Source: Rhodocyclaceae bacterium
GTDB taxonomy: Bacteria; Pseudomonadota; Gammaproteobacteria; Burkholderiales; Rhodocyclaceae
Reading direction: 5' to 3'
Assembly: GCA_011391215.1 (NCBI GenBank)
Contig: JAABQX010000018.1
Location: forward strand, 1-34,878
Length of the DNA stretch: 34,878 nucleotides
Position 1 is the stretch's first letter. Each line of letters opens with the position of its first letter. A program made the position numbers and the translations under genes. The notes under the pieces are model-generated. The model was given only the letters and a program-made list of their open reading frames with translations. It made no database searches and had not been told where the DNA came from. This document shows, piece after piece, positions 5,697 through 32,295 of this stretch.

Positions 5697-5707
5697 ACCC
5701 CTGCATT

Positions 5708-5732
5708 GCCGTCCCGCCAGCGCCGACTTTTT
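5708..5732 (-). repeat. dispersed 23-bp repeat, copy 1
   Basis: The minus strand reads five A, G, then the exact core TCGGCGCTGGCGGGACGGC. It begins 12 bases after the AraC-type gene's stop codon, so in that gene's sense direction it ends with a run of five T. Confidence 0.9.
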
Positions 5733-5760
5733 GCTGGCTAGCAAGGGGGCGCAAGGGTAT

Positions 5761-5782
5761 ATTGAGAAAAATATTTTTCAAT
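5761..5782 (+). promoter_or_regulatory. AT-rich inverted repeat ahead of the pqi operon
   Basis: ATTGA, a single G, then a run of A meets a run of T and CAAT, so the 22 bases form a near-perfect palindrome with one unpaired G. It lies about 65 bases ahead of the first gene of the pqi operon and stands out in a GC-rich region. It could be an operator or a hairpin; nothing in the sequence decides. Confidence 0.35.
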
Positions 5783-5847
5783 GGTTCCGGCAGCGGCTCG
5801 ATGAAGTGCGCGGTGTCGCGACCAAATAACCGTAGGAGAGGAAAAAC

Positions 5848-6318
5848 ATGAAACACATCATGCACGTTGCTGCGGGGGCTGTGATGCTGTCCCTGGCCTG
5901 TGTCGCCACAGCACAAAAACCTTCTGTTTATCCCGCCCAGGGTCAAAGTCAGACTCAGCAGAGCAGAGATGATGGCGAATGCTACGTCTGGGCCAAGCAG
6001 AATACCGGCATCGACCCGGCCGCTGTGGCTGCCGCACCTGCGCCGGCGCCGCAGTCTGGTCCGGCGGTGGGGGGTGGTGAGCGCGCGCGCGGTGCTTTGC
6101 GCGGTGCCGCGGTCGGTGGGATCATCGATGGCGGCGACGGTGCCGGCAAGGGCGCCGCCGTGGGTGTCGTGGCCGGAGGCGTGAGAGCGCGCAGCAACCA
6201 GAGTTCCCAGAATGCTCAGGCTCAGCAGCAAGCCCAATCTCAGAAACAGGGATCAATGGATACCTTTTACCGCGCCTATGGCGCATGCATGTCAGGGCGC
6301 GGCTATTCAGTCAAGTAA
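5848..6318 (+). CDS. exported glycine-zipper protein
   Basis: A 156-residue protein with a clear signal peptide (residues 1-22, cleavage after ATA before QK). The mature part is rich in Q, A and G. Residues 80-111 form a glycine-zipper-like segment (GALRGAAVGGIIDGGDGAGKG and AAVGVVAGGV), typical of small outer-membrane-associated or pore-related proteins. The C-terminus has FYRAYGACMSGRGYSVK, a pattern common in glycine-zipper family proteins, with Cys residues at about 45 and 148. A strong AGGAGAGG ribosome site precedes the ATG. Its stop codon touches the ATG of the first pqiA gene with no gap, so it is the first gene of the envelope operon. Function unknown beyond an envelope location. Confidence 0.7.
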   Translation: MKHIMHVAAGAVMLSLACVATAQKPSVYPAQGQSQTQQSRDDGECYVWAKQNTGIDPAAVAAAPAPAPQSGPAVGGGERARGALRGAAVGGIIDGGDGAGKGAAVGVVAGGVRARSNQSSQNAQAQQQAQSQKQGSMDTFYRAYGACMSGRGYSVK

Positions 6319-6930
6319 ATGCCTGATGGAAATCAGCTGATCGCCTGCCACGAATGCGATCTGCTGCAGCGCGAAGTGGCGTTGCCGGAGGGCGGCGTGG
6401 CGCGCTGTGCACGTTGCGGGGGCATATTGTTTCGCAGCCATCCGCAAGGCCTTGAGCGTGCCCTCGCGTTCACGCTCGCCGCGCTGGTGTTGTTCATTAT
6501 CAGCAATACCTTCCCCATCGTCGGCCTCGAAGTCAATGGTGATCTGATCCAGGCGACACTGCTGGGCACCGTTCACATGTTGTATCGCGACGGCATGTGG
6601 ATCGTCGCCGGATTGGTTATGTTTACCACGGTGCTGGCGCCGCTGGCCCACATTCTGGGGATGCTTTACATCCTGGCGCCGCTGCGGTTCGGGCGCCGGC
6701 CGCCGAATTCTGCGGCACTCATCCGCGTGCTGACGGAAGTCAAGTATTGGGGGATGGTCGAGGTTTTCGTTCTCGGCGTACTGGTTTCGCTGGTCAAGCT
6801 CGCCGACCTCGCCAAGATCGTCCCCGGTATCGCGCTATGGTCGTTCGCCGGCCTGATGATCCTCTTCACCGCCGCCACTGTCGCGTTCGATCAGCGCCAG
6901 GTCTGGCAAAAGCTGGGCGAGGTCGCATGA
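6319..6930 (+). CDS. pqiA: PqiA-like inner-membrane protein, first half
   Basis: The 203-residue protein opens with a rubredoxin-like zinc ribbon (CHECD about residues 10-14 and CARCGG about 31-36), followed by four hydrophobic segments (about 50-70, 92-120, 145-165, 172-192). This equals one half of E. coli PqiA, which is a single protein of two similar halves. PqiA is the inner-membrane partner of the PqiB/PqiC lipid-transport complex. The start abuts the stop of the glycine-zipper gene, has no strong ribosome site and is probably translated by coupling. It overlaps the second half-gene by 4 bases (ATGA). Confidence 0.87.
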   Translation: MPDGNQLIACHECDLLQREVALPEGGVARCARCGGILFRSHPQGLERALAFTLAALVLFIISNTFPIVGLEVNGDLIQATLLGTVHMLYRDGMWIVAGLVMFTTVLAPLAHILGMLYILAPLRFGRRPPNSAALIRVLTEVKYWGMVEVFVLGVLVSLVKLADLAKIVPGIALWSFAGLMILFTAATVAFDQRQVWQKLGEVA

Positions 6931-7550
6931 GTGCGGTTACCGCCGCAAGTCGCGGTTTGTCGGCCTGCCATGGCTGCGGCTTGCTGACGCAAACCGGCCA
7001 TCATCACGCGACCCACTGCCCGCGTTGCGGGGCCGGTGTGCATGCGCGCAAACCGGACAGCATCGCCCGCACCTGGGCTTTCCTGATTGCCGCCATGATC
7101 ATGTACATTCCCGCGAACGTGCTGCCGATCATGATCACCGAATCGCTCTTCGGCGCCCAGGCTGACACGATCATGAGCGGTGTGGCTTATCTGTGGCATC
7201 ACGGTTCCTGGCATCTGGCCTTGATCGTGTTCATCGCCAGCGTCGCGGTGCCGATGCTCAAGATCATGGCGCTGATCGTTCTTGTCGTGTCGGTACAGTT
7301 TCGTTCGGCATGGGATCCGTTGCAGCGCACCAAGCTTTACCGTGTGGTCGAACTGGTCGGCAAATGGTCGATGCTCGATATTTATGTGGTTGCCCTGATG
7401 GTCGCCCTGGTGCAGCTCAAGGCGCTGGCGACGATTAGTGCCGGGCCCGGGGCTGTGGCTTTCGGCGCTGTGGTCGTCTTGACGATGTTCGCGGCGATGA
7501 GTTTCGATCCGCGTCTTATCTGGGATGCAACGGAGAACAACGATGGCTGA
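6927..7550 (+). CDS. pqiA: PqiA-like inner-membrane protein, second half
   Basis: The 207-residue protein starts at the ATG overlapping the previous stop codon; the frame is open further upstream, but that stretch lies antiparallel in meaning to pqiA first-half coding and is not used. It has its own zinc ribbon (CHGCG near residues 13-17 and CPRCGAG near 31-37) and four hydrophobic segments, including the family's YIPANVLPIM near residue 57 and SMLDIYVVALMVALV near 150. It corresponds to the second half of E. coli PqiA. It overlaps pqiB by 8 bases. Split PqiA genes occur in other proteobacteria. Confidence 0.87.
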   Translation: MSAVTAASRGLSACHGCGLLTQTGHHHATHCPRCGAGVHARKPDSIARTWAFLIAAMIMYIPANVLPIMITESLFGAQADTIMSGVAYLWHHGSWHLALIVFIASVAVPMLKIMALIVLVVSVQFRSAWDPLQRTKLYRVVELVGKWSMLDIYVVALMVALVQLKALATISAGPGAVAFGAVVVLTMFAAMSFDPRLIWDATENNDG

Positions 7551-9803: not shown

Positions 9804-9833
9804 TTTTCAAGCAGTTTCTGTTTGCCGCTGTTC

Positions 9834-12221: not shown

Positions 12222-12232
12222 GAGATTTATGT

Positions 12233-13720
12233 TCAAGCGAAGCGCGTGTCGAGGCCGGCTTCGGCCATCTCGGCAGCGCGCAGTTGCGCTTTCGCCTTGT
12301 TCAACGTTTCCTGCCACTCGCTGTCGGGGTCGGAGTCGGCGACGATGCCGGCCCCCGCCTGCACATAGATGCGGCCGTCCTTGACGACTGCCGTGCGGAT
12401 GGCGATGGCCAGGTCCATGTCGCCGTTGAAACCGAGATAGCCGACACTGCCCGCATAGATACCGCGTTTGGTGGGCTCCAGTTCGTCGATGATTTCCATC
12501 GCCCGCACCTTGGGCGCACCGGAGACGGTGCCGGCCGGAAAGGTGGCGCGCAGCACCGAGACCGGGCCTTCGTCGTCCTTGAGTTCGCCTTCGACGTTGG
12601 AGACGATGTGCATCACATGCGAGTAGCGTTCGATGGCGTATTGCTCAGTCACTTTCACGCTGCCGGTCTTGGCGACGCGACCGACATCGTTGCGACCGAG
12701 GTCGAGCAGTTGCAGGTGCTCGGCGCGCTCCTTTTCGTCAGCGAGCAGGTCGGCCGCCAGGGCGGTGTCTTCTTCCACGGTAGCGCCGCGCTTGCGCGTG
12801 CCGGCGATAGGGCGCAGCGTGATGCGTTTTTTACCGCCTTCACCTTCGAGCCGCACCAGAATTTCCGGCGAGGCGCCGACGACCTGAAAGTCGCCGAAAT
12901 CGAAGAGAAACATGTAGGGCGAGGGGTTGAGCGTGCGCAAGGCCCGGTAGAGCGCCAGCGGGCTGGCAGCAAAGGGCTTGCTCATGCGCTGCGATAGCAC
13001 CACCTGCATCACGTCGCCATCGACGATGTATTGCTTGGCCTTGCGTACCGCTGCCTTGAAGGCTTCTTCACCGAATTCAGAAGTCGGCGCTGGCGAGACG
13101 GCTGCCGCATCGACGGGTAGCTGCACGGGCGCGCGCAACTTGGCCAGCAGCTCTTTCAAACGTGCCTGCGCCTGCTTCCAAGCGCCGGGGAAACCGGGCT
13201 CGGCATACACCACCAAAGTCAGCTTGCCCGAGAGGTTATCGACGATAGCAATTTCTTCCGACAGCAGCAGCAAAATGTCCGGTACGCCGAGGGCATCGGG
13301 CTTGTTTGTATCGGCCAGCTTGGGTTCGACATAGCGCACCGTGTCGTAGCCGAACACGCCGACGAGGCCGCCGCAGAAACGTGGCAGGCCGGGGAGGTCG
13401 GGCACCTTGAAGCGCGCCATGAACTCCGAGATGTAGGACATCGGGTTGGTATGCTCGCGCCGTTCGGCGACCCGGTTGCCGGTGAGCAGCAGGATCGTCG
13501 AGCCGGAAACTGAAATGCGTGTCGGCGTGCTCAAGCCGATAAAAGAGTAGCGGCCGAAGCGCTCGCCGCCCTGCACGGATTCGAGCAGGTAGGCGTGCGG
13601 TCCTTCGGCGAGTTTCAGGTAGATCGAGAGGGGGGTGTCGAGATCGGCAAAAGTCTCGAGTGTGACGGGGATGCGGTTGTAGCCTTCGAGGGCCAACTGC
13701 TCAAATGCGGATTCTTTCAT
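12233..13720 (-). CDS. trpE: anthranilate synthase component I
   Basis: The 495-residue protein catalyses chorismate plus glutamine to anthranilate with TrpG, the first step of tryptophan synthesis. The N-terminal part holds the tryptophan feedback site motif LLESVQGGERFGRYSFIG (residues 45-62). The C-terminal chorismate-binding domain has GDVMQVVLSQRM, RPIAGTRKRG, LGRNDVGRV and TVSGAPKVRAMEIIDELEP. trpG is not in the window, so trpE stands apart from the rest of the pathway; the order rpe-gph-trpE is common in beta/gammaproteobacteria. Its start lies inside the 3' end of gph (20-base overlap). Odd: the linker between the N- and C-terminal domains (residues 207-213, AVSPAPT) is encoded by a copy of the dispersed repeat. 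Confidence 0.97.
   Translation of the reverse strand: MKESAFEQLALEGYNRIPVTLETFADLDTPLSIYLKLAEGPHAYLLESVQGGERFGRYSFIGLSTPTRISVSGSTILLLTGNRVAERREHTNPMSYISEFMARFKVPDLPGLPRFCGGLVGVFGYDTVRYVEPKLADTNKPDALGVPDILLLLSEEIAIVDNLSGKLTLVVYAEPGFPGAWKQAQARLKELLAKLRAPVQLPVDAAAVSPAPTSEFGEEAFKAAVRKAKQYIVDGDVMQVVLSQRMSKPFAASPLALYRALRTLNPSPYMFLFDFGDFQVVGASPEILVRLEGEGGKKRITLRPIAGTRKRGATVEEDTALAADLLADEKERAEHLQLLDLGRNDVGRVAKTGSVKVTEQYAIERYSHVMHIVSNVEGELKDDEGPVSVLRATFPAGTVSGAPKVRAMEIIDELEPTKRGIYAGSVGYLGFNGDMDLAIAIRTAVVKDGRIYVQAGAGIVADSDPDSEWQETLNKAKAQLRAAEMAEAGLDTRFA
13081..13102 (+). repeat. dispersed 23-bp repeat, copy 2, inside trpE
   Basis: Plus strand AAG then TCGGCGCTGGCGAGACGGC, one base from the main form. 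It lies in frame in trpE and encodes residues 207-213 (AVSPAPT) on the coding (minus) strand, in the variable stretch between the two TrpE domains. Confidence 0.85.
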
Positions 13721-15070: not shown

Positions 15071-15171
15071 GGGAAGCCTCCTCGTTGAATTAGAATGGCG
15101 ACAATTCTAGCTGCGCACCCCATCAGGCCGGCTAAGAATTTCTAATGGAAGCTATAAGCAAGGACGCCGGA

Positions 15172-15555
15172 ATGGCCGAATCGAAAAAATACGAAATCGC
15201 AATTACCGTGGCGACACAATATATGCCCGAGCAATCCGATCCCGACGCGGAACGCTATTTCTTTGCCTATACGATCACCGTGACCAATAGCGGCTCGGTC
15301 TCGGCCCAACTCATTTCACGGCACTGGGTGATCACCGATGCCGAAAACAAGGTAGAAGAAGTGCGCGGCCTCGGCGTGGTCGGCCATCAGCCCCTGTTGA
15401 AACCGGGCGAATCCTTTGAGTACACCAGCGGCTGTCCGTTGGCGACACCGGTGGGCACCATGAGCGGCAGCTACCAGATGGTGGCCGAAGATGGCACGCG
15501 TTTCGAGGCGCTAATTCCCGAGTTTGTCCTGGCGATGCCCCGCACCCTGCATTAA
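15172..15555 (+). CDS. apaG: ApaG protein
   Basis: I chose the ATG at 15172 because an AAGGA site stands about 8 bases ahead and the 127-residue product matches the usual length of about 125; the frame is open from another ATG at 15145, which lacks a ribosome site. The protein is the immunoglobulin-fold ApaG domain: FAYTITVTNSG, AQLISRHWVITDAENKVEEV, GLGVVGHQPLLKPGESFEYTSG, PVGTMSGSYQMV. Its biochemical role is uncertain; mutants in enterobacteria affect Co2+ resistance and Mg2+ efflux. It is divergent from rpe, a common neighbourhood. A repeat copy begins one base after its stop region. Confidence 0.95.
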   Translation: MAESKKYEIAITVATQYMPEQSDPDAERYFFAYTITVTNSGSVSAQLISRHWVITDAENKVEEVRGLGVVGHQPLLKPGESFEYTSGCPLATPVGTMSGSYQMVAEDGTRFEALIPEFVLAMPRTLH

Positions 15556-15556
15556 G

Positions 15557-15579
15557 AAAGTCGGTGCTGGCGGGACGGC
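15557..15579 (+). repeat. dispersed 23-bp repeat, copy 3
   Basis: Plus strand AAAG then TCGGTGCTGGCGGGACGGC (one base from the main form). It begins 1 base after the apaG stop codon, in A-run-first orientation relative to apaG. Confidence 0.9.
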
Positions 15580-15661
15580 AGGTTGCTGCTTTTTGATCGT
15601 TCTATCTGTTGCGTATGCTTCTTCCTTCACAATCCACTGCATTTCTCCTGCCTACTCTTCG

Positions 15662-16231: not shown

Positions 16232-16262
16232 GGAGTCCCAGAGGCGACTTTGGTTGATTTAT

Positions 16263-17011: not shown

Positions 17012-19087
17012 ATGATCCGCGCAAAATCCAAAGACAACCCACCCCCGCACATGCCGCTCATCTTCCCCAAACTGGTTTTCGCCGGCACCATTTTCGCCAG
17101 CGCCTTTTCGCTGTTTCTGGTTCAGCCGCTGATCGCCAAGCAAATCCTCCCCTGGTTCGGTGGTACGGCGGCGGTGTGGGCGATCTGCATGGTGTTTTTC
17201 CAGGTGACCCTGCTGGCCGGTTACGCTTATTCCGACTGGTTGTCGCGCCGCCTGGTGCCGCGTCGCCAGGTCGTGGTCCATGTGTCCTTGCTGGCGGCCA
17301 GCCTGCTGTTCCTGCCGATCGTCGCGAATGCGCACTGGAAGCCGACCGGCGCCGAAGACCCGACCCTGCTGATCCTCGGCCTGCTGCTGGCGACTATCGG
17401 CCTGCCCTATTTTCTGCTCTCGACTACCGGCCCGTTGGTGCAGTCCTGGGTGGCGCGTGCCCAGTTGGGGACGCATGTCTATCGCTATTTTTCCTTGTCC
17501 AATATGGCGTCCCTGATCGCCTTGATCAGCTACCCGTTCCTCATCGAAACCCGCACTGCATTGCTCGGCCAGGCCTATGGCTGGTCCATCGCCTATGCAG
17601 TATTTACGGTGCTTTGCGCGGCTTCCGGCGTGTATTTCCTGCGCCATGTCCAGGCGCTGCCGGCCCCGACGCACAAAAAGATGCATGCTCCCGAAGGCGA
17701 CTGGGATCCCGCCTGGCGCGATTACCTGTTCTGGCTGCTGCCGGCCGCTGCGGCTTCCTGGTTGCTCCTCGCCATCACCAACCACATCACCCAGAACGTC
17801 GCCTCCATCCCCTTCCTGTGGTTGCTGCCACTGACTCTCTATCTGCTGACTTTCGTGTTGTGCTTCGAGAGTGACCGCTGGTATCGCCGCGCCTTTTTCG
17901 TGCCGGCCGGCGCCATTCTGCTCGCCGTGTGCGCCTACGGCTTGCAGGATAGTGATATCGGTATCAGTGTCAAAGTGGCCATTCCCCTGTATTCGGCCGG
18001 CCTGTTTGTTTTCTGCATGTTCCTGCATGGCGAACTCGCCCGATTGCGTCCCGCCACCCGCCATCTGACGCGCTTCTACCTGATGGTCTCGGTGGGCGGC
18101 GCCTTCGGCGGCATCGTTGTCGGCCTGATCGCGCCGCGCATCTTCCCGGCCTATTACGAACTCGGCATCGGCTTTGCCCTGACCGCCGTGCTCGCCGCCG
18201 TCATGTTCCGCCGCAACCGGCCGGTGATGCTGGTCGCGGTGGCACTGGCGGCGGCCTGCGGCTATTTCCTTTATGCGCAAATCAGCGACGACCTCAGTAA
18301 CGCGCGACGCATGGAACGGAGTTTCTACGGCACGCTCTACACGATGGATAGCGTCGATAAAGAACTCGACGACCAGGTGCGCCAGCTTTATCACGGCTCC
18401 ATCAAGCACGGCGAGCAATACCTGTCGCCGGCGCGGCGTCGCGAGCCGACGGCGTATTACGGCCGCAGCGCCGGCGTCGGCCTGGCCATCGCCAACACCC
18501 CGGCCCAAAACAAGAAAGTCGGCATGATCGGTTTAGGTGCCGGCACCCTGGCAGCCTACGGTCAACCCGGCGATGTCTATCGCATGTACGAGATCAACCC
18601 GCAGGTGATCGAACTGGCGCAAAGCGAGTTCACCTTCATGGCCGACAGCCCCGCCACCATCGATAACGTGCTCGGCGACGCCCGCCTATCCATGGAGCGC
18701 GAAGCTCCGCAGAACTTCGACGTACTGGCCGTCGATGCTTTTTCCGGTGACTCGGTTCCCGTGCACCTGATCACCGCCGAAGCGATGGATGTGTATCTGC
18801 GCCACATGAAACCCGATGGCATCATCGCCTTCCATGTCACCAACCGCTTCCTCTGGATGCCGCCGGTAGTCGAGAATATCGCCAAGGCCAGGGGCCTGCA
18901 TGTGGCGCTGATCCACGACGAGAACGACAACCCGCTACTGCGCAACACTGACTGGGTGCTCGTTGCCCGCAACCCCGCCGTATTGGCGCAGCAAGCCATT
19001 GCCAGCCGCAGCGCGCCGATCCGCGGCATTCCCGGGCTGGGCGTGTGGACGGATGACTTCAATAATCTCTTTGATGTGCTGAAGTGA
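17012..19087 (+). CDS. membrane-fused spermidine synthase-like protein
   Basis: The 691-residue protein has an N-terminal membrane half (about residues 20-440) with roughly 11 hydrophobic segments, beginning KLVFAGTIFASAFSLFLVQP and LIAKQILPWFGG, the usual opening of fused spermidine-synthase transporters. The C-terminal half (about 490-690) is a spermidine-synthase-like Rossmann domain: VGMIGLGAGTLAAYG (S-adenosylmethionine loop), YRMYEINPQVIELA, FDVLAVDAFSGDSVPVHL (catalytic-type Asp region). Aminopropyl transfer is the family's reaction but has been shown for few membrane-fused members. The start at 17012 is in-frame with a second ATG at 17051; a weak site precedes the first. It is followed after 3 bases by repeat copy 4. 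Confidence 0.82.
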   Translation: MIRAKSKDNPPPHMPLIFPKLVFAGTIFASAFSLFLVQPLIAKQILPWFGGTAAVWAICMVFFQVTLLAGYAYSDWLSRRLVPRRQVVVHVSLLAASLLFLPIVANAHWKPTGAEDPTLLILGLLLATIGLPYFLLSTTGPLVQSWVARAQLGTHVYRYFSLSNMASLIALISYPFLIETRTALLGQAYGWSIAYAVFTVLCAASGVYFLRHVQALPAPTHKKMHAPEGDWDPAWRDYLFWLLPAAAASWLLLAITNHITQNVASIPFLWLLPLTLYLLTFVLCFESDRWYRRAFFVPAGAILLAVCAYGLQDSDIGISVKVAIPLYSAGLFVFCMFLHGELARLRPATRHLTRFYLMVSVGGAFGGIVVGLIAPRIFPAYYELGIGFALTAVLAAVMFRRNRPVMLVAVALAAACGYFLYAQISDDLSNARRMERSFYGTLYTMDSVDKELDDQVRQLYHGSIKHGEQYLSPARRREPTAYYGRSAGVGLAIANTPAQNKKVGMIGLGAGTLAAYGQPGDVYRMYEINPQVIELAQSEFTFMADSPATIDNVLGDARLSMEREAPQNFDVLAVDAFSGDSVPVHLITAEAMDVYLRHMKPDGIIAFHVTNRFLWMPPVVENIAKARGLHVALIHDENDNPLLRNTDWVLVARNPAVLAQQAIASRSAPIRGIPGLGVWTDDFNNLFDVLK

Positions 19088-19090
19088 GCT

Positions 19091-19113
19091 GCCGTCCCGC
19101 CAGTGCCGATTTT
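19091..19113 (-). repeat. dispersed 23-bp repeat, copy 4
   Basis: Minus strand AAAA then TCGGCACTGGCGGGACGGC, the most divergent copy (G to A after the A-run and one base in the core). It starts 3 bases after the stop of the spermidine-synthase-like gene and ends touching the argJ stop codon, filling the space between the convergent genes. Confidence 0.85.
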
Positions 19114-20351
19114 CAGCTACGGTAATCGGCGTTGATCTTCACGTAGTCGTAGCTGAAGTCGCAAGTCCAGACGTTGGCTGACTGGCTGCCGCGGCCGAGG
19201 TCGACGCGAACCCTGATTTCGGCGGGCTTCATTGCGGCGGCGCCGTCTTCTTCGCGATAGCTGGCGGCGCGGCCGCCATTTTCTGCGACCAAGGTATCGC
19301 CGAGCCAGACCTTCACCTTGGTGTCGTCGAGATCGGCGAGACCGGGATCGTTATTCCAGGCATAGCCGATGGCGGCGAGGATGCGGCCGAGGTTGGGGTC
19401 GGAGGCGAAGAAGGCGGTCTTCACCAGCGGCGAGTGGCCGATGGCGTAGCCGACGGCCTTGCATTCGGCAACGCTACGGCCGCCTGCCACGGCGATCTCG
19501 ATGTATTTGGTGGCACCTTCGCCGTCGCGCACGATGGCTTGGGCGAGTTCGCGTGCCACGGCGATCACGGACTGCTTGAATTCATCCCAGCCCGGTGCGG
19601 TGATCGATTCGAATTTCGCTGTGCCCTGGCCGGTGGCGATGAGGATGAAGGAGTCGTTGGTCGACGTGTCGCCGTCGATGGTGATGCAGTTGAAGGATTC
19701 GTCGGCGGCTTCCTTGACCAGGCGTTCCAGCATCGGCTGGCTGATGGCGGCGTCGGTGGCCATGAAGCCGAGCATGGTGGCCATGTTCGGGCGGATCATG
19801 CCAGCGCCTTTCGCCATGCCAGTGATGGTCGCCGCCGTCCCGCCAGCGCCGACTTTTCGGGAGGCAGCCTTGGCGACGGTGTCGGTGGTCATGATGGCGT
19901 GCGCGGCGTCGTGCCAGCCGTCGGCTTTCAATGCGGACAATGCGGCGGGCAGGCCGGCCTTGAGGCGTTCGACCGGCAGCGGTTCGAGGATCACGCCGGT
20001 GGAGAAGGGCAGCACCTGATCGGCGCGCAGATCCATCAACTTGGCGAGGGCGGCGCAGGACTGGCGCGCGGCGTCCAAGCCGGGTTCGCCGGTCCCGGCG
20101 TTGGCAATGCCGGTGTTGATGACAAGGGCGCGAATACCTTCCTGCTGCAAATGTTCGCGGCAGACATGGACGGGCGCGGCGCAAAATCGATTCTTGGTGA
20201 ACACGCCGGCGACGCGGCTGCCGGGGGCGAGTTCGATCAGGGTGAGATCGCGGCGGTTGAGCTTGCGGATGCCGGCTTCGGCGACGCCGAGGCGCACGCC
20301 GGCGACGGGAAAGAGTTGGTCGGCAGCAGGGGTGGCGTAATTGACGGGCAT
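19113..20351 (-). CDS. argJ: bifunctional glutamate N-acetyltransferase / amino-acid acetyltransferase
   Basis: The 412-residue ArgJ makes N-acetylglutamate and recycles the acetyl group from N-acetylornithine in arginine synthesis. Hallmarks: [37 protein letters not shown], and [16 protein letters not shown], which contains the autocleavage site before Thr192. It should be processed into alpha and beta chains. The ATG has a GGAGAG site 9 bases ahead. It lies 6 bases after glnE and is probably co-transcribed with it. Odd: residues 166-173 (KVGAGGTA), in a segment before the catalytic region that is variable in the family, are encoded exactly by a copy of the dispersed repeat. Confidence 0.96.
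19834..19857 (-). repeat. dispersed 23-bp repeat, copy 5, inside argJ
   Basis: Minus strand four A, G, then the exact core TCGGCGCTGGCGGGACGGC. It is in frame with argJ and encodes residues 166-173 (KVGAGGTA). It is identical to the intergenic copies 1 and 7, despite lying in coding sequence. Confidence 0.9.
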
Positions 20352-20357
20352 TTGAAT

Positions 20358-23051
20358 TTACTCTCCGAAGACATGTGACCAGAGTTGGCGCACTGCGGCG
20401 ATGCGCTGTGCGTGGGGCGCCGCTTCGATGCGGCTGTCGAGGTTGTTGAGGCGGCGCTGATGCTGCAGACGACGGTACTCGCGGTAGGCGTCGCGCACTT
20501 CCTCGGCGAGAGCAGCGGGGATCAGCCCGCATTCGGCGGCGATGCGCAGCAGCGCGATGTTGCCGAGGTTACCGTTGAGTTCGGGGTGATCGCAGGCATG
20601 GGCGAGGATCAAATATTGCACGGCGAACTCGACATCGATGATGCCGCCGAAATCCTGCTTGAGATCAAATATGTCGTCATTGCCCCGGGAGGACAGACTG
20701 TCGAACATCTTCTGCCGCATCGCCTTCACTTCCTCACGCAGTTTCGCGCGGTCGCGCCGCTGGCAGAGAATTTCGCTGCGCGTCTGCTCGAAGGCGGCGC
20801 CGATGGCCGGATCGCCGGCGACGAAGCGCGCCCGCGTCAGCGCCTGGTGCTCCCACAGCCAGGCGGACTCGAGCTGATATTTGCGGAAGGCCGCGACGGA
20901 GGAAACCACCAGACCGGCATCGCCGTTCGGGCGCAGGCGCAGGTCGGTTTCGAAGAGGATGCCGGCGGAGGTGCGCGAGGACATCCAGGTATTGAGACGC
21001 GTACCGAGTTTTGCATAGACCTCGGCGGCCTCGGGCGCGGGGTCGTCGAATAGATAAACGAGGTCGAGGTCGGAAGCGTAGCCGAGCTCCTTGCCGCCGA
21101 GCTTGCCGTAGCCGATGACGGCGAACGCCGGAGTGTCCCGATGCTTTTTCAGCAACTTGCGCCAGGCCAGCACGATGGTGCGGTCGACCAGGATGTCGGC
21201 GAGTGCCGAGAGATGGTCGGAGAGAATTTCCAGCCGCAGCAGGCCGGAAACATCCTGGCTGACGAGGCGGAACACCTGGGCGTGGTGCGCCTCGCGCAGG
21301 GCGTCCATCTGCCGTTCGGTATCCGGTTCCAGTTCGTCGGTCTGCTCGATGAGTTGCTGGCGGAAAGCGCTCCAGTCCGGCGCCATTTCCAGCAGGCGCG
21401 GATCGAGCAGTTCGTCGAGCAGGATCGGGTGGTGCAGCAGGTAATCCGCCGCCCAGGACGAGGCGCTGGCGATGCGCGCCACCTGTTCGAGGCTTTGCGG
21501 ATATTGATGCAGCAGGGCGAGGTAGGCAGAGCGGCGGCCGATGGCTTCGAGCAGGTCGAGCAGGCGCGACAAGGTTTCGTCGCGGTTGGGTGTCGCCGCA
21601 GCGGCCTGAATGGCACGTGGCACCAGCGCATCGAAGCGGCTTTTCGCATGGTCGCTCATTTGCAGGTAGCGACCGCCGGTGCGGATGGCAGCGAGACGGG
21701 CGCACAGTGCTGCCGTCTCGCCAAAGCCGAGTTTTTCCAACTCGGTGGCCTGGCCGTCGGATTGCGTCCATACCGTATCGAGATGATGATTCTGCTCGTT
21801 CGGATCGGCAAACACGGCTTCGAAATGGCGCGCGACGGTCTGGCGATGATCGTCCAATTCCATCAGCAGGCTTTCATAGTTGGCGAAACCCATGGCCGCG
21901 GCGATGCGCGCCTGGTCCTGCGGATTTTCCGGCAGGGCATGGGTCTGCGCATCGTCGAGATATTGCAGGCGATGTTCGAGGCGGCGCAGGAAACGATAGG
22001 CGGACGAGAGTTCGACGACCGCGTCGAGTTCGAGCTGGTTGCGATCAACGAGCAGTTTCAAGACCTCCAGCGTCGGCTTGACCTGCAGGCTGCGGTCGCG
22101 ACCGCCGCGAATCAGCTGGAAGACCTGGGCGATGAACTCGATTTCGCGGATGCCGCCGGGGCCGAGCTTGACGTTGTTCGCCATGTCCTTCTTCGCGACT
22201 TCGCGGCGGATCTGCGCATGCAGGTCGCGCATGGCATTGATGGTGCCGAAATCGAGGTATTTGCGGAAAACGAAGGGGCGGCGGATGGCCTCCAGATCGT
22301 CCCAGTGTTTTCCGGCGCAGTTGGGTGCAATGGGGCGCGCCTTGATCCAGGCATAACGTTCCCATTCGCGGCCCTGGGTGATAAAGTAGTTTTCCAGCAT
22401 CTGGAAGGAGCAGACCAATGGCCCGGAATCGCCATTCGGCCGCAAGCGCATGTCGACGCGGAACACCTGGCCGTCCCCGGTGACTTCGGCGATGGCGCTG
22501 ATCAGCGCCTTGCCGACGCGGGCAAAGAACTCGAAGTTCGAGATGGAGCGCGGCCCTGCCGTGTCGCCATCTTCGGGGTAAACGAAAATCAGGTCGATAT
22601 CGGAAGAGACATTGAGCTCGCGGCCGCCCAGTTTGCCCATGCCAATGACGATCAGCCGCTGACGCCCTCCCTTGGCGTTTTGTGGCTCACCGTAACGGGC
22701 GACGAGGGCGGCCTCGCTGATGTCCAGCGCCGCGCTGACGGCGGCCTCGGCGACCAGCGTCATGCTTTCGACGACCTCGGCCAGTTCGGCGCGACCGTCC
22801 AGATCGCGGCTGGCGATACGCGCCATCGCCTGTTGCTTGAGGCGGCGCAGCGCAGGTTTCAGTGTGTCCTCGGTGAGTGATTCCGGCTGCAGCCAGGCAT
22901 TCAGCTGGGCGGCATCGAGGGCAGGTCTGTCAGGGCTGAATTCGGCAGCCAGTGCTGGCTGTGCATGCACCAGGCGCGCCAGATAGCGCGAGAAATCGGC
23001 AGGGGAGCTTTGCGATGGGTGCGGGGAAGGGTTCGGGGTCGGCTGAGTCAT
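20358..23051 (-). CDS. glnE: bifunctional glutamine-synthetase adenylyltransferase/deadenylase
   Basis: The 897-residue protein has two nucleotidyltransferase domains: N-terminal GKLGGRELNVSSDIDLIFVY (Asp151/Asp153, the deadenylating half) and C-terminal GKLGGKELGYASDLDLVYLF (Asp661/Asp663, the adenylating half). Between them is the PII-responsive helical region. It adds or removes AMP on glutamine synthetase in response to PII and glutamine, so it controls nitrogen assimilation. Length fits the family (about 900-950). No clear ribosome site precedes the ATG. It is divergent from yhdP, with 82 bases between the proposed starts. Confidence 0.96.
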   Translation of the reverse strand: MTQPTPNPSPHPSQSSPADFSRYLARLVHAQPALAAEFSPDRPALDAAQLNAWLQPESLTEDTLKPALRRLKQQAMARIASRDLDGRAELAEVVESMTLVAEAAVSAALDISEAALVARYGEPQNAKGGRQRLIVIGMGKLGGRELNVSSDIDLIFVYPEDGDTAGPRSISNFEFFARVGKALISAIAEVTGDGQVFRVDMRLRPNGDSGPLVCSFQMLENYFITQGREWERYAWIKARPIAPNCAGKHWDDLEAIRRPFVFRKYLDFGTINAMRDLHAQIRREVAKKDMANNVKLGPGGIREIEFIAQVFQLIRGGRDRSLQVKPTLEVLKLLVDRNQLELDAVVELSSAYRFLRRLEHRLQYLDDAQTHALPENPQDQARIAAAMGFANYESLLMELDDHRQTVARHFEAVFADPNEQNHHLDTVWTQSDGQATELEKLGFGETAALCARLAAIRTGGRYLQMSDHAKSRFDALVPRAIQAAAATPNRDETLSRLLDLLEAIGRRSAYLALLHQYPQSLEQVARIASASSWAADYLLHHPILLDELLDPRLLEMAPDWSAFRQQLIEQTDELEPDTERQMDALREAHHAQVFRLVSQDVSGLLRLEILSDHLSALADILVDRTIVLAWRKLLKKHRDTPAFAVIGYGKLGGKELGYASDLDLVYLFDDPAPEAAEVYAKLGTRLNTWMSSRTSAGILFETDLRLRPNGDAGLVVSSVAAFRKYQLESAWLWEHQALTRARFVAGDPAIGAAFEQTRSEILCQRRDRAKLREEVKAMRQKMFDSLSSRGNDDIFDLKQDFGGIIDVEFAVQYLILAHACDHPELNGNLGNIALLRIAAECGLIPAALAEEVRDAYREYRRLQHQRRLNNLDSRIEAAPHAQRIAAVRQLWSHVFGE

Positions 23052-23133
23052 GGATTAAACTGTCTACTAGTTGGGGCTGCATTCAGAGGGCCACCGCCGT
23101 CAAACAATCGCATTGTAGCCTTCGACCGTCACG

Positions 23134-26100: not shown

Positions 26101-27027
26101 AGCCAATTTACCCTGCCTGCCACCGACAGCAATGCCAGCGCCAAAGCGTCTATTGCGCCGGAACCTGTCACAACGGATAACAACCAGGAGATGCCGGCGA
26201 TCGATCTCGTCATTGATGATTTCCGCCTGCAAGAGAAAGCGCTGGGCGAGGTACGCGTTGCCGCTGAAAATCGCGCAGGTGTCTGGCAGGCAAAGCTGGA
26301 TGTAAAGAACGATGCTGCCAAACTGCAAGGTACCGGGCGCTGGCGCCCTAGTTTTTCCGCCCCCGAGACCGCGCTCAACTTCAAGCTCGATGTCAATGAT
26401 GCCGAAAAACTGCTGGTTCGCCTGGGGCTACCCGATTCGATGCGCCGCGGTACGGCACAGTTCGAAGGCGACCTGACCTGGGCCGGTGCGCCGTTTGCTT
26501 TCGACCTGCCGAGCCTCACCGGCCAGCTCAAGATCGATGCAGGAAAAGGGCAGTTCAAGAAGCTCGAACCTGGCGTGGGGCGCTTGTTGGGCGTGCTGTC
26601 CCTGCAGTCGCTGCCGCGCCGCATTTCTCTCGATTTTCGTGATGTCTTCAGCGAGGGTTTCGCTTTCGACAGCATCACCGGCACTGCCGACATTAGCCGT
26701 GGCCAGATGCACACCGAGGGCTTGAACCTCCGCGGCCCGGCGGCGAAGGTGCTGCTCTCAGGTAAAGTGAATCTGGTCGCCGAAACGCAGGATCTCAAGG
26801 TGCGGGTGCAACCATCGGTCGGTGAATCCATCGCCATCGGCGCAATGATCGTCAATCCGGCCATTGGCGCTGCCGCCTGGCTTGCCCAGAAGGTCTTGAA
26901 CGATCCGCTCGATCAGGCGTTTGCCTTCGAGTACGCTGTCACGGGTAGCTGGAGCGACCCGCAGGTGGACAAGATCGACCGCAAGCCACCTGAAAACGAT
27001 TTCACAACCAGACCCGCGTCGCCATGA
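23134..27027 (+). CDS. yhdP: YhdP-family AsmA-like lipid-transport protein
   Basis: The 1,297-residue protein has one N-terminal membrane helix (about residues 25-45), then a long beta-strand periplasmic region of the AsmA-like kind: YRDRIEQELSGAIGLPVKIE and ISATWPG-type openings (SVSATWPGLHPLLVINGLHL), and near the end GRLLGVLSLQSLPRRISLDFRDVFSEGFAF, a YhdP hallmark. In E. coli YhdP, with TamB and YdbH, carries phospholipid to the outer membrane. The start is uncertain: no ATG is available; TTG at 23134 or GTG at 23170 are candidates, and neither has a strong ribosome site. Residues 910-924 form an Asn/Gly-rich tract. Its stop overlaps the nitrilase ATG by 4 bases. Confidence 0.92.
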   Translation: MPASLLAQSTSPVHASPLLRGVFVWGWRLLLACYFLTGAIILVGRYVVLPEIAGYRDRIEQELSGAIGLPVKIESVSATWPGLHPLLVINGLHLHDREGRPALSFDQVEAAVGWSSLWHFGLRLHRLEIVAPALDIRRDAAGVLFVAGLAVQGGDDNGFADWLLAQGRIVVRDARLTWHDELRSAPALELQHLNFDLRNAGRHHSFGLTAIPPAPVAERLDLRGTLVGHDVADLSAWRGELFADLEQADIAAWAPWLDAPLELTRGTGGVRLWLDFEKLMLTGFTADVRLADVSVRLQADLPVLELNHLAGRLSGRLTDEGYSGEIKHLALLTAEGIEVPPTDARLTLNTVKSRESGEFRANGLDLGALAALASHLPLSEDVHARLKSFAPQGRLSGLELTWRGSVDAPQRWQIKGAFDGLALAAYHELPGFMGLSGKLEGDERAGQVHIDSRNARADLPAVFADPTLSLNDLSAEIGWKTRDKQVDLLFSRISFQNPDAHGEISGHYRYTGQGPGEIDLTAKVTNAAGSAVWRYLPLAVGQQTRDWLRASIIGGHSDSTTLRLKGPLEKFPFRDNKEGIFQVKGTFQGATLKYAPDWPEITAIDGDLLFEGVRMLIRGQRGKILGVDLSEVRAELADLELPEEILTVTGQARGVTQGFLDFIEASPVGELIDHFTATMNATGKGELDLKLVLPLRHIADTQVQGRYRFAENQLRVLSELPPFSAARGEFNFTADRLQAKNLRANFMGAPLTLDVASISGGGVRVNAAGTLTTQVLRQEYGWRALEHLSGQSPWRATVTVKKHGAGADIRFDSTLEGLSSSLPEPFNKSARDALPLRVESHVEAQRNTLKASLGNNVSVNLLDSGTGWRGRAAIGTAANNSTAPLPANGVTLAITQPKLDVDVWRALLASNGSGNGNGNNGNGKPVPAFPLAAVDLKTSEMHVLGRRFHDVQLTGARNDALWRFDLASREAQGKVTWDGTGAGRVTGRLSQFTLPATDSNASAKASIAPEPVTTDNNQEMPAIDLVIDDFRLQEKALGEVRVAAENRAGVWQAKLDVKNDAAKLQGTGRWRPSFSAPETALNFKLDVNDAEKLLVRLGLPDSMRRGTAQFEGDLTWAGAPFAFDLPSLTGQLKIDAGKGQFKKLEPGVGRLLGVLSLQSLPRRISLDFRDVFSEGFAFDSITGTADISRGQMHTEGLNLRGPAAKVLLSGKVNLVAETQDLKVRVQPSVGESIAIGAMIVNPAIGAAAWLAQKVLNDPLDQAFAFEYAVTGSWSDPQVDKIDRKPPENDFTTRPASP
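25861..25905 (+). repeat. Asn/Gly-coding short-unit tract in yhdP
   Basis: Alternating AAT/AAC/AGT and GGT/GGC codons over about 45 bases encode residues 910-924 (SNGSGNGNGNNGNGK). The unit of about six bases makes slippage possible; six-base changes would keep the frame. Confidence 0.75.
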
Positions 27028-27827
27028 CTTTCCGTATCGCTGCACTCCAGATGATTTCCGGCCCTGATCTGGCGCCGAATCTCGCCACTGCCGCGCGCCT
27101 GATTGCCGAGGCGGCAGCGCAGGGCGCGCAGTTGGTCACCTTGCCCGAATATTTTCCGATCATCTCCGACAGCGATAAAGCACGGCTGGCGGTACGCGAA
27201 GTCGACGGTAACGGCCCGATTCAGGAATTCCTGGCGGAAAACGCGGCGCGCCATGGCCTCTGGCTGGTGGGCGGTACGCTGCCCTTGCTGGCCAACGACC
27301 CGGCGAAACTCAAGAACACCTGCCTGGTGTTCGACCCAGCCGGCCGGCGTGTCGCGCGTTACGACAAGATCCATTTGTTCGGTTTCCGGAAGGGCGACGA
27401 GTCCTACGACGAATCCGCTTTCATCGAGGCGGGCGCGCCCGTGCCGGTGGCCTTCGATGCGCCGTGCGGCACGGTCGGCCTGGGTATCTGTTACGACTTG
27501 CGCTTTCCGGAGCTGTTTCGTGCGCTGGGCGAGTTGGCTCTGATCGTGCTGCCCGCCGCCTTCACCGACACCACCGGCCGCGCCCATTGGGAAGTGCTGC
27601 TGCGCGCGCGCGCCATCGAAAACCAGTGCTACGTGCTGGCGGCGGCGCAGGGCGGCCTGCATCCGGGTGGCCGCATGACCCATGGCAACAGCCTGATCAT
27701 CGATCCCTGGGGCGAGATCATCGCCCGCATGGACAAGGGCGAGGGTGTCGTCATGGCGGAACTTGATCACGTGCGCATTGCCGAAATCAGAACCAGCCTG
27801 CCGGCACTACTGCACCGCAGGATCTGA
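27024..27827 (+). CDS. nitrilase-family carbon-nitrogen hydrolase
   Basis: The 267-residue protein has the full catalytic triad: Glu42 (TLPEYF), Lys115 (YDKIHLFGF) and Cys156 (GLGICYDLRFPELFR). The text matches the Nit1/Nit2 branch, whose members hydrolyse deaminated glutathione or omega-amides such as alpha-ketoglutaramate. Its exact substrate is open. The ATG overlaps the yhdP stop by 4 bases. The order yhdP-nit-tldD is conserved in many proteobacteria. A repeat copy lies 24 bases after the stop. Confidence 0.93.
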   Translation: MTFRIAALQMISGPDLAPNLATAARLIAEAAAQGAQLVTLPEYFPIISDSDKARLAVREVDGNGPIQEFLAENAARHGLWLVGGTLPLLANDPAKLKNTCLVFDPAGRRVARYDKIHLFGFRKGDESYDESAFIEAGAPVPVAFDAPCGTVGLGICYDLRFPELFRALGELALIVLPAAFTDTTGRAHWEVLLRARAIENQCYVLAAAQGGLHPGGRMTHGNSLIIDPWGEIIARMDKGEGVVMAELDHVRIAEIRTSLPALLHRRI

Positions 27828-27851
27828 ATGCATCGAAGACTGTAAACTTGA

Positions 27852-27874
27852 AAAGTCGGCGCTGGCGAGACGGC
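27852..27874 (+). repeat. dispersed 23-bp repeat, copy 6
   Basis: Plus strand AAAG then TCGGCGCTGGCGAGACGGC, the same GAGAC variant as the trpE copy. It lies 24 bases after the nitrilase stop and about 28 bases before the tldD start. Confidence 0.9.
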
Positions 27875-27902
27875 GCCCCACCCAAAATAGCGGAAGAATT
27901 TC

Positions 27903-29351
27903 ATGACCCAAGACCCCAGCAGCCTTTTTCGCACGGCAGAGCAGTACCTGCTGTCACCTTACAACCTGACGACCGGGCAACTCTCCGGCGTGTTCGGCGA
28001 AATGTTCGGCCACCGGCTCGATGCCGCCGACCTGTATTTCCAGTTCTCGCGCTCCGAGGCCTGGAGTCTCGAAGAGGGCATCGTCAAGTCCGGCAGCTTC
28101 AACATCGAGCAGGGCGTCGGCGTGCGCGCCATCAGCGGCGAGAAGACTGCCTTCGCCTACTCGGATGAAATCAGCATGCCGGCCTTGCTGGGCGCGGCGC
28201 GGGCGACGCGGGCAATTGCCGCTGCGGGTGGCGCGGGGAGCACACCCTTGCTTTCCGGCCGTGGTCTGCCGGCCCTGTATGCCATCACCGATCCGCTTGG
28301 TTCGCTGGCCGACGCAGAGAAGGTCAAATTGCTGGAACGTCTCGAACAACTGGCCCGCGCCGCCGATACGCGCGTTACCCAGGTCATGGCGACCATCGCC
28401 GGTAGTTGGGAAACCATGCTGGTGGTGCGTTCCGATGGGCATCTGGCGGCCGACGTGCGGCCGCTGGCGCGCGTCTCGATCACCGTCATCCTCGAAGCAA
28501 ATGGCAAGCGTGAGCAGGGCTCGGCGGGCGGCGGCGGGCGTTTCGACTATGGCTATTTCAGCGATGAGGTGCTGGCCGAGTATGCGCACCAGGCCATCCA
28601 TCAGGCCTCCGTCAATCTGGACGCGCGCCCGGCACCGGCCGGTGAGATGACTGTGGTGCTCGGCAACGGCTGGCCGGGCATCCTGCTGCACGAGGCGATC
28701 GGCCACGGGCTCGAAGGCGACTTCAACCGCAAGGGCAGCTCGGCTTTCTCCGGTCGCCTGGGCCAGCGCGTCGCCGCCAAGGGCGTCACGGTGGTGGACG
28801 ATGGGACGATTCCCGACCGGCGCGGTTCGCTGTCGGTGGATGACGAGGGTAACCCGACGCAACGCACCGTGCTGATCGAGGACGGTATCCTCGTCGGTTA
28901 CCTGCAGGACGCCCTGAACGCGCGTCTGATGGGCATGGCGCCGACCGGCAACGGGCGCCGCGAATCCTTTGCCCACATGCCCCTGCCGCGCATGACCAAT
29001 ACCACCATGATGGCCGGCGACAAGGACCCGCAGGAGATCATCGCCTCGGTGAAGAAGGGGCTGTATGCCGCCAACTTCGGCGGCGGGCAGGTCGACATCA
29101 CCAGCGGCAAGTTTGTGTTCTCCGCCGCCGAGGCCTACCTCATCGAGAACGGCAGGATCGGTGCGCCAGTGAAGGGCGCCACGCTGATCGGCAACGGACC
29201 CGATGTGCTGAAACGTGTCTCGATGATCGGCAACGACCTGGCGCTCGATCCTGGTGTCGGCACCTGCGGCAAGGAAGGCCAGAGCGTGCCGGTCGGCGTC
29301 GGCCAGCCGACATTGCGCATCGACGGCCTGACCGTGGGCGGTACGTCCTGA
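27903..29351 (+). CDS. tldD: metalloprotease TldD
   Basis: The 482-residue TldD carries the zinc-protease motif HEAIGH (residues 263-268) in [16 protein letters not shown], and the C-terminal [20 protein letters not shown] typical of TldD. With its partner TldE/PmbA (not in the window) it degrades unfolded peptides and matures ribosomal peptides such as microcin B17. The ATG has a GGAAG site about 8 bases ahead. A repeat copy sits in the 75-base gap upstream. Confidence 0.96.
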
Positions 29352-29369
29352 GCCGGCAAATCTTGTGTC

Positions 29370-29382
29370 GAGCCTGCGGCTC
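29370..29382 (+). terminator. possible bidirectional hairpin between convergent genes
   Basis: GAGCC and GGCTC pair around a three-base loop, 19 bases after the tldD stop and touching the stop codon of the convergent cNMP-binding gene. There is no T-run, so it is a weak terminator candidate. Confidence 0.3.
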
Positions 29383-29764: not shown

Positions 29765-29929
29765 TGTCCCGGCGAGTCGATGTGGCAAGTGCCAGCATTA
29801 TGTCCGGCTATCGAGCCTGTTGTAAATCCAACGAAAGAGATAGATCGCCGCGGCAGGAATGCCTTGTGCCGACCCAACCTCGCCGCTGCGCGCCTCTGTC
29901 GGGAGGCCGGATCTTGCGCTGCACTGCGG

Positions 29930-29935
29930 TAAAAT
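29930..29935 (+). promoter_or_regulatory. candidate -10 element for aroG
   Basis: TAAAAT lies 28 bases before the aroG ATG in the 199-base divergent region. No convincing -35 box stands at the expected distance, so this is a weak call. No clear Shine-Dalgarno sequence precedes the ATG. Confidence 0.3.
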
Positions 29936-29963
29936 CGCGCGCTTTCCGATCTAGGCTACCACC

Positions 29964-31031: not shown

Positions 31032-31084
31032 AAATACGGACAACTGAGGTTGTTTGCCGGGTGGCACAAAAATCCAACTATCGG

Positions 31085-31090
31085 TAATAT
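31085..31090 (+). promoter_or_regulatory. candidate -10 element very close to the ATG of the cNMP-binding gene
   Basis: TAATAT ends 7 bases before the ATG at 31098. If it is the -10 box, transcription would begin at or next to the start codon, giving a leaderless message; no Shine-Dalgarno is visible there. No good -35 was seen. Confidence 0.25.
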
Positions 31091-31097
31091 CTGACCT

Positions 31098-31637
31098 ATG
31101 CAGAATCCTAAAACTCTCGAACAGTTATCGGTCTTCGAGTCGCTTGGTAGTGCGGAAACGTTTGTCGACCGTATTCTTCAAATCGTCGAACATATCAGCT
31201 TGTTCGAGGATTTCGAACGCGCGGACATCGAAGTCCTGGCCCGCTATATGAATTGCTATCGCGCTGCGGCCGGCAGGGAAATTATCCGCGAAGGCGAGAC
31301 CAGCGACTATATGCTGCTGATCATCGAAGGCAGTATCGAGATCCTCAAGCTCGATGCGCGCGGTCTACCGCAGAGCCTGGGTGTTTCCGGCCCAGGCAAA
31401 ACGCTCGGCGAGATGTCGCTGATCGATGGTGAACCGCGTTTCGCGAGTTGCGTGACGCTTGAAAGCTCGGTCTTCGCCGTGCTCGACCGGGAAGCGCTGA
31501 CGCGCATGCTGACTGAAGAGTCCCGCGTCGGCGTGAAGATTCTCGTGGAACTGCTCACTTTACTCAACCAGCGTTTGCGCGGGCTCGGCAACGAGCTGAT
31601 GAAGTGTCGAGATAACCAGCGACTGCGGGTGCGCTGA
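31098..31637 (+). CDS. stand-alone cyclic-nucleotide-binding-domain protein
   Basis: The 179-residue protein has an N-terminal helical part (residues 1-40) and one cNMP-binding domain (about 40-150): FEDFERADIEVLARYMNCYR, GREIIREGETSDYMLLIIEG, and the cassette GEMSLIDGEPRFASC, with its Glu and Arg. After it come helices with no helix-turn-helix, so it is probably not a DNA-binding regulator. It lies 66 bases after aroG on the same strand and may be co-transcribed or have its own promoter. The ligand (cAMP, cGMP or none) is not decided by sequence. A repeat copy lies 18 bases after its stop. Confidence 0.83.
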   Translation: MQNPKTLEQLSVFESLGSAETFVDRILQIVEHISLFEDFERADIEVLARYMNCYRAAAGREIIREGETSDYMLLIIEGSIEILKLDARGLPQSLGVSGPGKTLGEMSLIDGEPRFASCVTLESSVFAVLDREALTRMLTEESRVGVKILVELLTLLNQRLRGLGNELMKCRDNQRLRVR

Positions 31638-31655
31638 AACCGGAAATGCGCTGAG

Positions 31656-31678
31656 AAAGTCGGCGCTGGCGGGACGGC
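31656..31678 (+). repeat. dispersed 23-bp repeat, copy 7
   Basis: Plus strand AAAG then the exact core TCGGCGCTGGCGGGACGGC. It begins 18 bases after the stop of the cNMP-binding gene, between convergent genes. Confidence 0.9.
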
Positions 31679-31689
31679 GGCAGGCCGCC
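31676..31689 (+). terminator. possible bidirectional hairpin growing out of repeat copy 7
   Basis: GGCGG pairs with CCGCC around CAGG. The left arm shares its first bases with the end of the repeat. It lies between convergent genes, 14 bases before the pduO stop. There is no T-run. Confidence 0.3.
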
Positions 31690-31703
31690 CCCTCACGCAC
31701 AGA

Positions 31704-32264
31704 TCAGGCGTTAATCCCTTTTTGCCACATGACATCGCCATGCCCGGCATGCTTGTTGAGCCAGCGCGCCAGCACGAATAGTAAATCCGACAAGCGGTTG
31801 AGATATTGCCGCGACGGTTCGGAGACTGCCTCGCCATCGTTACCCCGCGCCAGCGCCACCACAGCGCGCTCGGCGCGTCGGCAGACGGTGCGGGCGTGGT
31901 GGGTCAGGGCGGAGGCGCGCGTGCCGCCGGGCAAAATGAATTCCTTGAGTGGCGCCAGTTCACCGTTATAGCGGTCGATGGCGGTTTCCAGGCGCCCCGG
32001 TTGCGTGTCCTTGAGAAAGGCACCGCCGGGCACCGAGAGTTCGCCGCCCAGGTCAAACAGGTCATGCTGCACGCCGGTCAGGAGCATACGTACCTCCTCC
32101 GGCAACGCTTCGCAAAGCAGGATGCCGAGGATGGCGTTGAGTTCATCGACATCACCGAGCGCGGCAACGCGCGGCGCATCCTTGCCGACGCGCGAGCCGT
32201 CGCCGAGGCCGGTGGTGCCGGCGTCGCCGGTGCGGGTGTAGATTTTCGAGAGTCGGTAGCCCAT
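31704..32264 (-). CDS. pduO: PduO-type ATP:cob(I)alamin adenosyltransferase
   Basis: The 186-residue product begins at the ATG at 32262-32264; the frame is open 39 codons further up, but through repeat copy 8 and the end of the neighbouring gene. Family motifs: KIYTRTGDAGTTGLGDGSRV (ATP loop, residues 7-26), VQHDLFDLGGELSVPGG, FILPGGTRASALTHHARTVC-type, RRAERAVVAL and NRLSDLLFVLARW. It makes adenosylcobalamin from cob(I)alamin. No Shine-Dalgarno precedes the ATG; the preceding bases are a T/A run joined to the repeat. It follows the SulP-Usp gene by 44 bases on the same strand. Confidence 0.94.
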   Translation of the reverse strand: MGYRLSKIYTRTGDAGTTGLGDGSRVGKDAPRVAALGDVDELNAILGILLCEALPEEVRMLLTGVQHDLFDLGGELSVPGGAFLKDTQPGRLETAIDRYNGELAPLKEFILPGGTRASALTHHARTVCRRAERAVVALARGNDGEAVSEPSRQYLNRLSDLLFVLARWLNKHAGHGDVMWQKGINA

Positions 32265-32270
32265 GATTTT

Positions 32271-32295
32271 AAAAAGTCGGTGCTGGCGGGACGGC
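32271..32295 (+). repeat. dispersed 23-bp repeat, copy 8
   Basis: Plus strand five A, G, then TCGGTGCTGGCGGGACGGC. On the minus strand it begins 13 bases after the stop of the SulP-Usp gene and ends 6 bases before the pduO ATG. Confidence 0.9.

Follow-up and report, generated by a model that had tools for sequence, protein, structure and literature searches.

A ~24-bp repeat shared by part of the Rhodocyclaceae is a probable DNA uptake sequence

Why does one short word recur along a Rhodocyclaceae contig in both orientations? The window analyzed here, a stretch of 34,878 nucleotides, is contig C18 of the genome that we label G000 (assembly 2.33 Mb, 102 contigs, 76% complete; other G-numbers label the compared genomes). 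An earlier reading of its sequence, the original prediction, had listed eight copies of an unnamed repeat with a near-identical core and had judged them beyond chance. The repeat has the consensus AAAAGTCGGCGCTGGCGGGACGGC (~24 bp), and comparison of sequences suggests that it is probably a DNA uptake sequence, akin to the DNA uptake sequences (DUS) of Neisseriaceae and the uptake signal sequences (USS) of Pasteurellaceae and a member of neither group. We recovered all eight copies with 0 or 1 mismatch each, at core starts 5708-, 13084+, 15561+, 19091-, 19834-, 27856+, 31660+, and 32277+ (the starts previously given on the plus strand mark the A-run a few bases earlier), together with a ninth copy in glnE that the earlier list had missed (3 mismatches). 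Against these nine matches, 100 dinucleotide shuffles gave 0.09 on average at ≤3 mismatches and never more than 2.

At the genome level, where the reversed motif served as control, G000 has 489 copies at ≤2 mismatches, 231 of them forward and 258 reverse (control 0), and 558 at ≤3 mismatches (control 8), so that the claim that the copies are not chance stands for window and genome alike. The logo was worked out on 423 kb of the assembly, which contain 34, 51, 25, 11, and 14 copies at 0, 1, 2, 3, and 4 mismatches, respectively. Here, at ≤2 mismatches, the five positions just 5′ of the core are occupied by A (83%), A (91%), A (95%), A (98%), and G (94%), and every position from the A-run through the final C is sharply defined in the logo. 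The A-run and the G are thus part of the motif, whose reverse strand ends in a T-run. Across 202 sites from G000 and G017 the consensus extends over 26 columns, CAAAAGTCGGCGCTGGCGGGACGGCA, with ~34.6 bits, a value somewhat inflated because the sites were picked at ≤3 mismatches. In a k-mer scan without prior input, the most strongly overrepresented 12-mers of G000 and G017 came from the word. The listed rows of the same scan in G002 were filled by an array resembling clustered regularly interspaced short palindromic repeats (L258-L277, 400 kb), with 12-mers such as GTCTTAATCCCT and TAGGAAACATGC occurring 58-59 times.

The word is restricted to one part of the family. Among 60 relatives searched at ≤3 mismatches, 17 of the 18 other genomes of the same genus carry 444-791 copies, and G019 (702) and G026 (802) from two other genera of the family are dense as well; the remaining 41, same-genus G006 included, have at most 31. 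In total the word is absent from 17 of 36 family genomes, again counting G006. An order-wide survey of 399 evenly drawn genomes found 4 of 13 family members dense (G000, G002, G017, and G302), and no dense genome among the 386 from other families of the order, where the maximum is 8 copies. G302 (genus g47) has 166 copies at ≤2 mismatches, below the other bearers, and possibly uses a variant dialect. When 20 genome-collection records, chosen among the matches listed, were searched at ≤2 mismatches, 16 had 259-668 copies, including metagenome-assembled genomes (MAGs) labeled Sulfuritalea, Sulfurisoma, and Propionivibrio dicarboxylicus; the four others are a Thiobacillus (9 copies), a groundwater betaproteobacterium (13), a Casimicrobiaceae member (6), and an Azonexus (3). 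Two of the relatives, G018 and G026, are probably the same assemblies as Sulfuritalea sp. CROMO_A_203 and Propionivibrio dicarboxylicus MiH-14oct19-39, with which they have glnE coordinates in common.

On a tree of a single gene, glnE, with 41 genomes as rows, the 24 bearers require at least 3 gains or losses, as judged from copy counts that mix searches at 2 and 3 mismatches. Every bearer falls into one group of 29 rows, which also contains the non-bearers G006, G020, G024, G032, and G035. G014 and G018 (fragments only) are omitted from the tree, and G021 and G022 have no glnE in the fetched stretch. G006, with 7 matches, sits on a long glnE branch, has divergent minor pilins in the fetched stretches, and keeps ComEC; as a genome that naturally lost or never had the word, it is useful for finding a receptor.

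The copies are symmetric in strand and evenly spaced. Both orientations occur in every 100-kb block of the 400 kb analyzed in each of G017 (49/42) and G002 (41/31). The coefficient of variation of the spacing is 0.70 in G017 and 0.64 in G002, compared with 0.99 and 0.98 for random placement, and only 1 of 2000 and 0 of 2000 randomizations, respectively, were as even as observed. With genes called by a home-made codon-score finder, 62 of 121 G000 copies lie inside predicted genes and 59 are intergenic, often a few bases past a stop codon; because genes cover 90% of the DNA, the intergenic density is ~8-fold higher. The genic copies favor three of the six reading frames (22, 21, and 10 copies, or 53 of 62, against 6, 2, and 1). 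These three encode mostly small residues, one reading RPASADF from the consensus, and such a bias is the expected result of purifying selection acting on the protein.

We compared individual sites across genomes to see how copies come and go. The argJ gene of G000 (19113-20351, minus strand) carries an exact-core copy on the minus strand at 19833..19858. Of 21 argJ sequences, 12 hold the word at ≤2 mismatches, nine in one orientation and G014, G016, and G019 in the other, the opposite 24-mers covering the same bases shifted by one. Only G013 has an indel at this site (20 of 21 have none), and the motif-less G006, G020, G021, and G022 have a different sequence of the same length. Likewise, trpE (12233-13720, minus strand) has a copy on the plus strand with 1 mismatch at 13078..13103; of 14 aligned sequences, 10 have the word at this site at ≤2 mismatches and none has an indel. 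The argJ and trpE copies align without indels to motif-less relatives, and these two coding copies arose by substitution; other comparisons are mixed. In 18 aligned glnE sequences there is no copy at ≤2 mismatches. When all frames were compared as protein with G006, G020, G021, and G022, 166 of 182 comparisons contained no gap. The 182 cover six frames, antisense included, and are therefore not independent; 10 of the 16 gapped cases are the argJ of G013.

Sites turn over while the consensus stays constant. From G017 to G002 the word is kept at 36 of 51 alignable sites (22 of 73 could not be aligned), and from G002 to G017 at 23 of 32 (13 of 45 not alignable), where any counterpart with an aligned length other than 24 was scored as non-motif, though some of these keep most of the word. 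Of the 15 sites scored lost in the first direction, 4 are gapless, 2 have counterparts that lack at least 15 bases, and the others show smaller gaps or a counterpart with extra bases; of the 9 in the second direction, a long gap is present at 3 and no gap at 1. Identity within the word is 0.874 compared with 0.778 in the nearest flanks (0.889 and 0.780 in the other direction), so that the word stands ~10 points above its near flanks, as an island of conservation within permissive DNA. In the stretches of 20 relatives around argJ, some copies are common and many are private.

Close inverted pairs are rare: 3 of 120 copies in G000 (control 1), 7 of 90 in G017 (control 2), and 5 of 72 in G002 (control 1). 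Most pairs in G017 and G002 correspond to a ~54-bp hairpin unit, composed of an CGTCCCGCCGGGCGCCGACTC arm and a motif copy, which is located inside some motif copies and once in tandem. We located the unit at L248:9041-9146, L248:13615, L249:8029, L240:8094, and L257:14093 in G017, at L263:1094, L266:11704, and L269:14149 in G002, and at L038:7490. At two sites, and probably at a third, one of G017 and G002 has the simple form and the other the composite form. The arm has no match at ≤3 mismatches in the 423 kb of G000. A further close inverted pair, two exact 22-mers in opposite orientation ~50 bp apart, lies at L110:5033-5106 in the Rhodocyclaceae MAG ppb04.

Biased import of self-DNA with recombination would produce what is seen here: hundreds of copies, a consensus that holds from genus to genus, turnover of single sites, both orientations at one site, tolerated placement, and even spacing. 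We infer competence, a receptor, a biased uptake step, and a drive by recombination: a receptor on the cell surface, probably one of the minor type IV pilins, would bind the ~24-bp word on extracellular double-stranded DNA, and competent cells would preferentially import DNA of their own clade. Recombination of these imported alleles would spread copies and maintain them, in either orientation, at any place where they are tolerated by the DNA or by the protein it encodes, such as intergenic gaps and permissive parts of proteins. A long ComEC frame (801 codons) is present in G000, with ComEC found in 55 of 61 genomes in all, and prepilin matches number 7-26 per genome in 16 of 16 genomes. ComEC and prepilins permit competence and do not prove it.

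A 2025 paper names Neisseriaceae and Pasteurellaceae as the only two families known to have such uptake words, gives DUS lengths of up to ~13 bp, and lists the USS 9-bp core types AAGTGCGGT and ACAAGCGGT (PMC12616744); according to another paper, every DUS dialect has a CTG core (+6 to +8) and an A at +10 (PMC3630211). The word has neither signature: aligned on GCCGTC it reads CCC, or CTC in some copies, in place of the DUS core, and the two USS 9-mers do not occur in its consensus, in agreement with the original prediction that it is neither of these uptake words. As in Neisseriaceae, the repeat is overrepresented, found on both strands within and between genes, restricted to a clade, and placed at permissive sites, and its hosts have prepilins and ComEC. 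In contrast to DUS, it is about twice as long, is present in hundreds rather than thousands of copies, and forms few inverted pairs, and no counterpart of ComP, the minor pilin that serves as DUS receptor, was found to track it. The hosts of DUS presumably belong to the same order, in GTDB terms, as the hosts of the word, and TGCCGTC, its end on the other strand, matches seven bases of the AT-DUS 12-mer, possibly by chance. USS copies are evenly spaced, and the word resembles them in this respect as well as in its length, its A-rich end, its hundreds of copies, and its presence on both strands. It differs from USS in bacterial lineage and in architecture, being a continuous GC-rich core where USS combine a 9-mer with two AT-rich stretches; the four-base inner USS core, GCGG, is also present in the word but in a different setting, and AAAGTCGG may resemble USS by chance. 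With uptake sequences in general the repeat shares hundreds of strand-symmetric copies within and between genes, and copies without insertion at permissive sites (argJ, trpE, the frame bias, and the low flank identity), the intergenic sites being mixed.

Several observations weigh against an uptake function. ComEC does not discriminate bearers from non-bearers, and no receptor was found among the candidates tried. The domain PF16732 (ComP_DUS) occurs in 53 of 61 genomes, motif-less ones included, and was not found in G000 itself; as a receptor marker it is too broad. A 151-residue pilin from a G017 cluster near argJ is present in 14 of 38 genomes, among them the motif-less G021, G023, G024, G025, and G036, and many bearers, such as G001 and G003, lack it. 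A pilin of ~225 residues (200 used in the search) occurs in 36 of 38 genomes irrespective of the motif. There is no comparable 12-mer, as an alternative dialect would provide, in 354 kb of motif-less G006 or in 304 kb of G035. The inverted pairs that are common among known uptake sequences, where they act as terminators, are scarce in G000, and identity within the word between G017 and G002 equals the genome mean (0.87), being high only relative to its own flanks. Copy density is only mildly lower in genome-specific blocks (1.95 versus 2.33 and 1.07 versus 1.94 per 10 kb). Finally, the gapped comparisons between G017 and G002 suggest that some intergenic copies could involve indels.

The even spacing of a few kb and the presence in coding and intergenic DNA would also suit the binding site of a chromosome-organizing or segregation protein, spread around the chromosome. 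Such housekeeping systems are usually conserved, whereas the word is lacking in a member of the same genus and in nearly half of the family genomes; 24 tightly conserved bases are long for sites of this kind, and the length of the word counts against them. The strands are mixed in the stretches examined, and no strand bias like that of FtsK orienting polar sequences is seen within the 400 kb each of G017 and G002. We regard this explanation, raised in the original prediction as a segregation signal, as improbable.

The other two options raised there, a mobile small repeat and an RNA-level signal, fit still less well, and it is its uptake option that the data support. Insertion of copies by a mobile element, either a miniature inverted-repeat transposable element (MITE) or a repetitive extragenic palindrome (REP) mobilized by a REP-associated tyrosine transposase (RAYT), would account for the dispersal, for the ~54-bp unit inside the motif that differs between G017 and G002, and for the long gaps at some intergenic losses. 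It is very hard to reconcile with the gapless alignment of the coding copies examined, in argJ, trpE, and most protein comparisons, to motif-less relatives, with half of the copies being coding, and with a hairpin arm that is unmatched in the 423 kb of G000. Moreover, 5 of the 9 motif-bearing genomes tested lack RAYT (Y1_Tnp), among them G017 and G002, which are both rated 100% complete, and 3 of 6 motif-less genomes have it. The word is short, numerous, and enriched between genes like REPs and their hairpin-forming doublets (REPINs) but, as originally noted, not REP-like: there is no clear palindrome, half of the copies are coding, and those at the coding sites examined were made by substitution. 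We consider a role in RNA or in termination near gene ends equally far-fetched. The intergenic excess, the position just past stop codons, and the T-run on the reverse strand point in this direction, yet the orientation of the T-run between tandem genes of G000 is not favored (9 terminator-like versus 16 opposite), half of the copies lie in genes in either orientation, and single copies rarely have a close inverted partner that could supply the second arm.

Returning to the uptake reading, we lean toward the view that the free-living Rhodocyclaceae contain a third, independently evolved system for uptake of self-DNA, built on a continuous word of ~24 bp. Its receptor would be neither ComP nor the predicted ComN of Pasteurellaceae, and in some species the ~54-bp hairpin unit would target the word, sit inside it, and keep a copy. 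Among the literature matches listed we found no report of an uptake sequence in Sulfuritalea-like bacteria. If true, a third lineage would have an uptake word, different in sequence and length and in environmental bacteria, and natural transformation would be frequent in Sulfuritalea-like bacteria. With motif-less close relatives at hand, one could then test how the specificity of uptake is gained and lost and which features of the receptor recur. The word could also mark the origin of DNA in metagenomes.

The remaining copies in the window lie mostly between genes. On the minus strand, an exact core (score 43.7) at 5707..5732 is intergenic, ~10 bases past the stop of an AraC-type regulator gene (4641-5696, plus strand). 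The copy at 19090..19115 (minus; 1 mismatch, A replacing the G before the core) has its core between the ends of argJ and a convergent open reading frame at 17012-19087 (plus), whose 691 residues have no Pfam match at E 0.001. The weaker glnE copy at 21711..21736 (minus; core 21712-21730, 3 core mismatches, score 32.6) lies within the gene. On the plus strand, a copy with 1 mismatch at 15555..15580 directly follows the stop of an ApaG-domain gene (15145-15555, plus), and another at 27850..27875 is placed between a CN_hydrolase gene (27024-27827) and a PmbA/TldD gene (27903-29351). Copies near the latter position were found in 5 of 20 relatives' stretches, some of which end short of the site. 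An exact core at 31654..31679 (plus) is intergenic, 3′ of a cNMP-binding-domain gene (31098-31637, plus), and a copy with 1 mismatch at 32271..32296 (plus) is upstream of a cobalamin adenosyltransferase gene if its start is 32264 (minus), and inside a longer open frame that extends to 32381.

Plasmids were considered as carriers and rejected: matches in 11 records are short or partial and look like chance. In motif-poor MAGs, some copies are paired within 4-9 kb (2 of 3 in Azonexus, 2 of 6 in Casimicrobiaceae, and 2 of 13 in the groundwater betaproteobacterium), at G074:C35:61467 and 68454, G067:C34:277120 and 285462, and G066:C16:6591 and 10689; they look as if segments had been imported from a bearing donor or mis-binned. 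The exact 22-mer also occurs in 52 stretches of a viral collection (L304-L355), once in 50 of them and twice in L324 and L330, perhaps in host flanks or proviruses.

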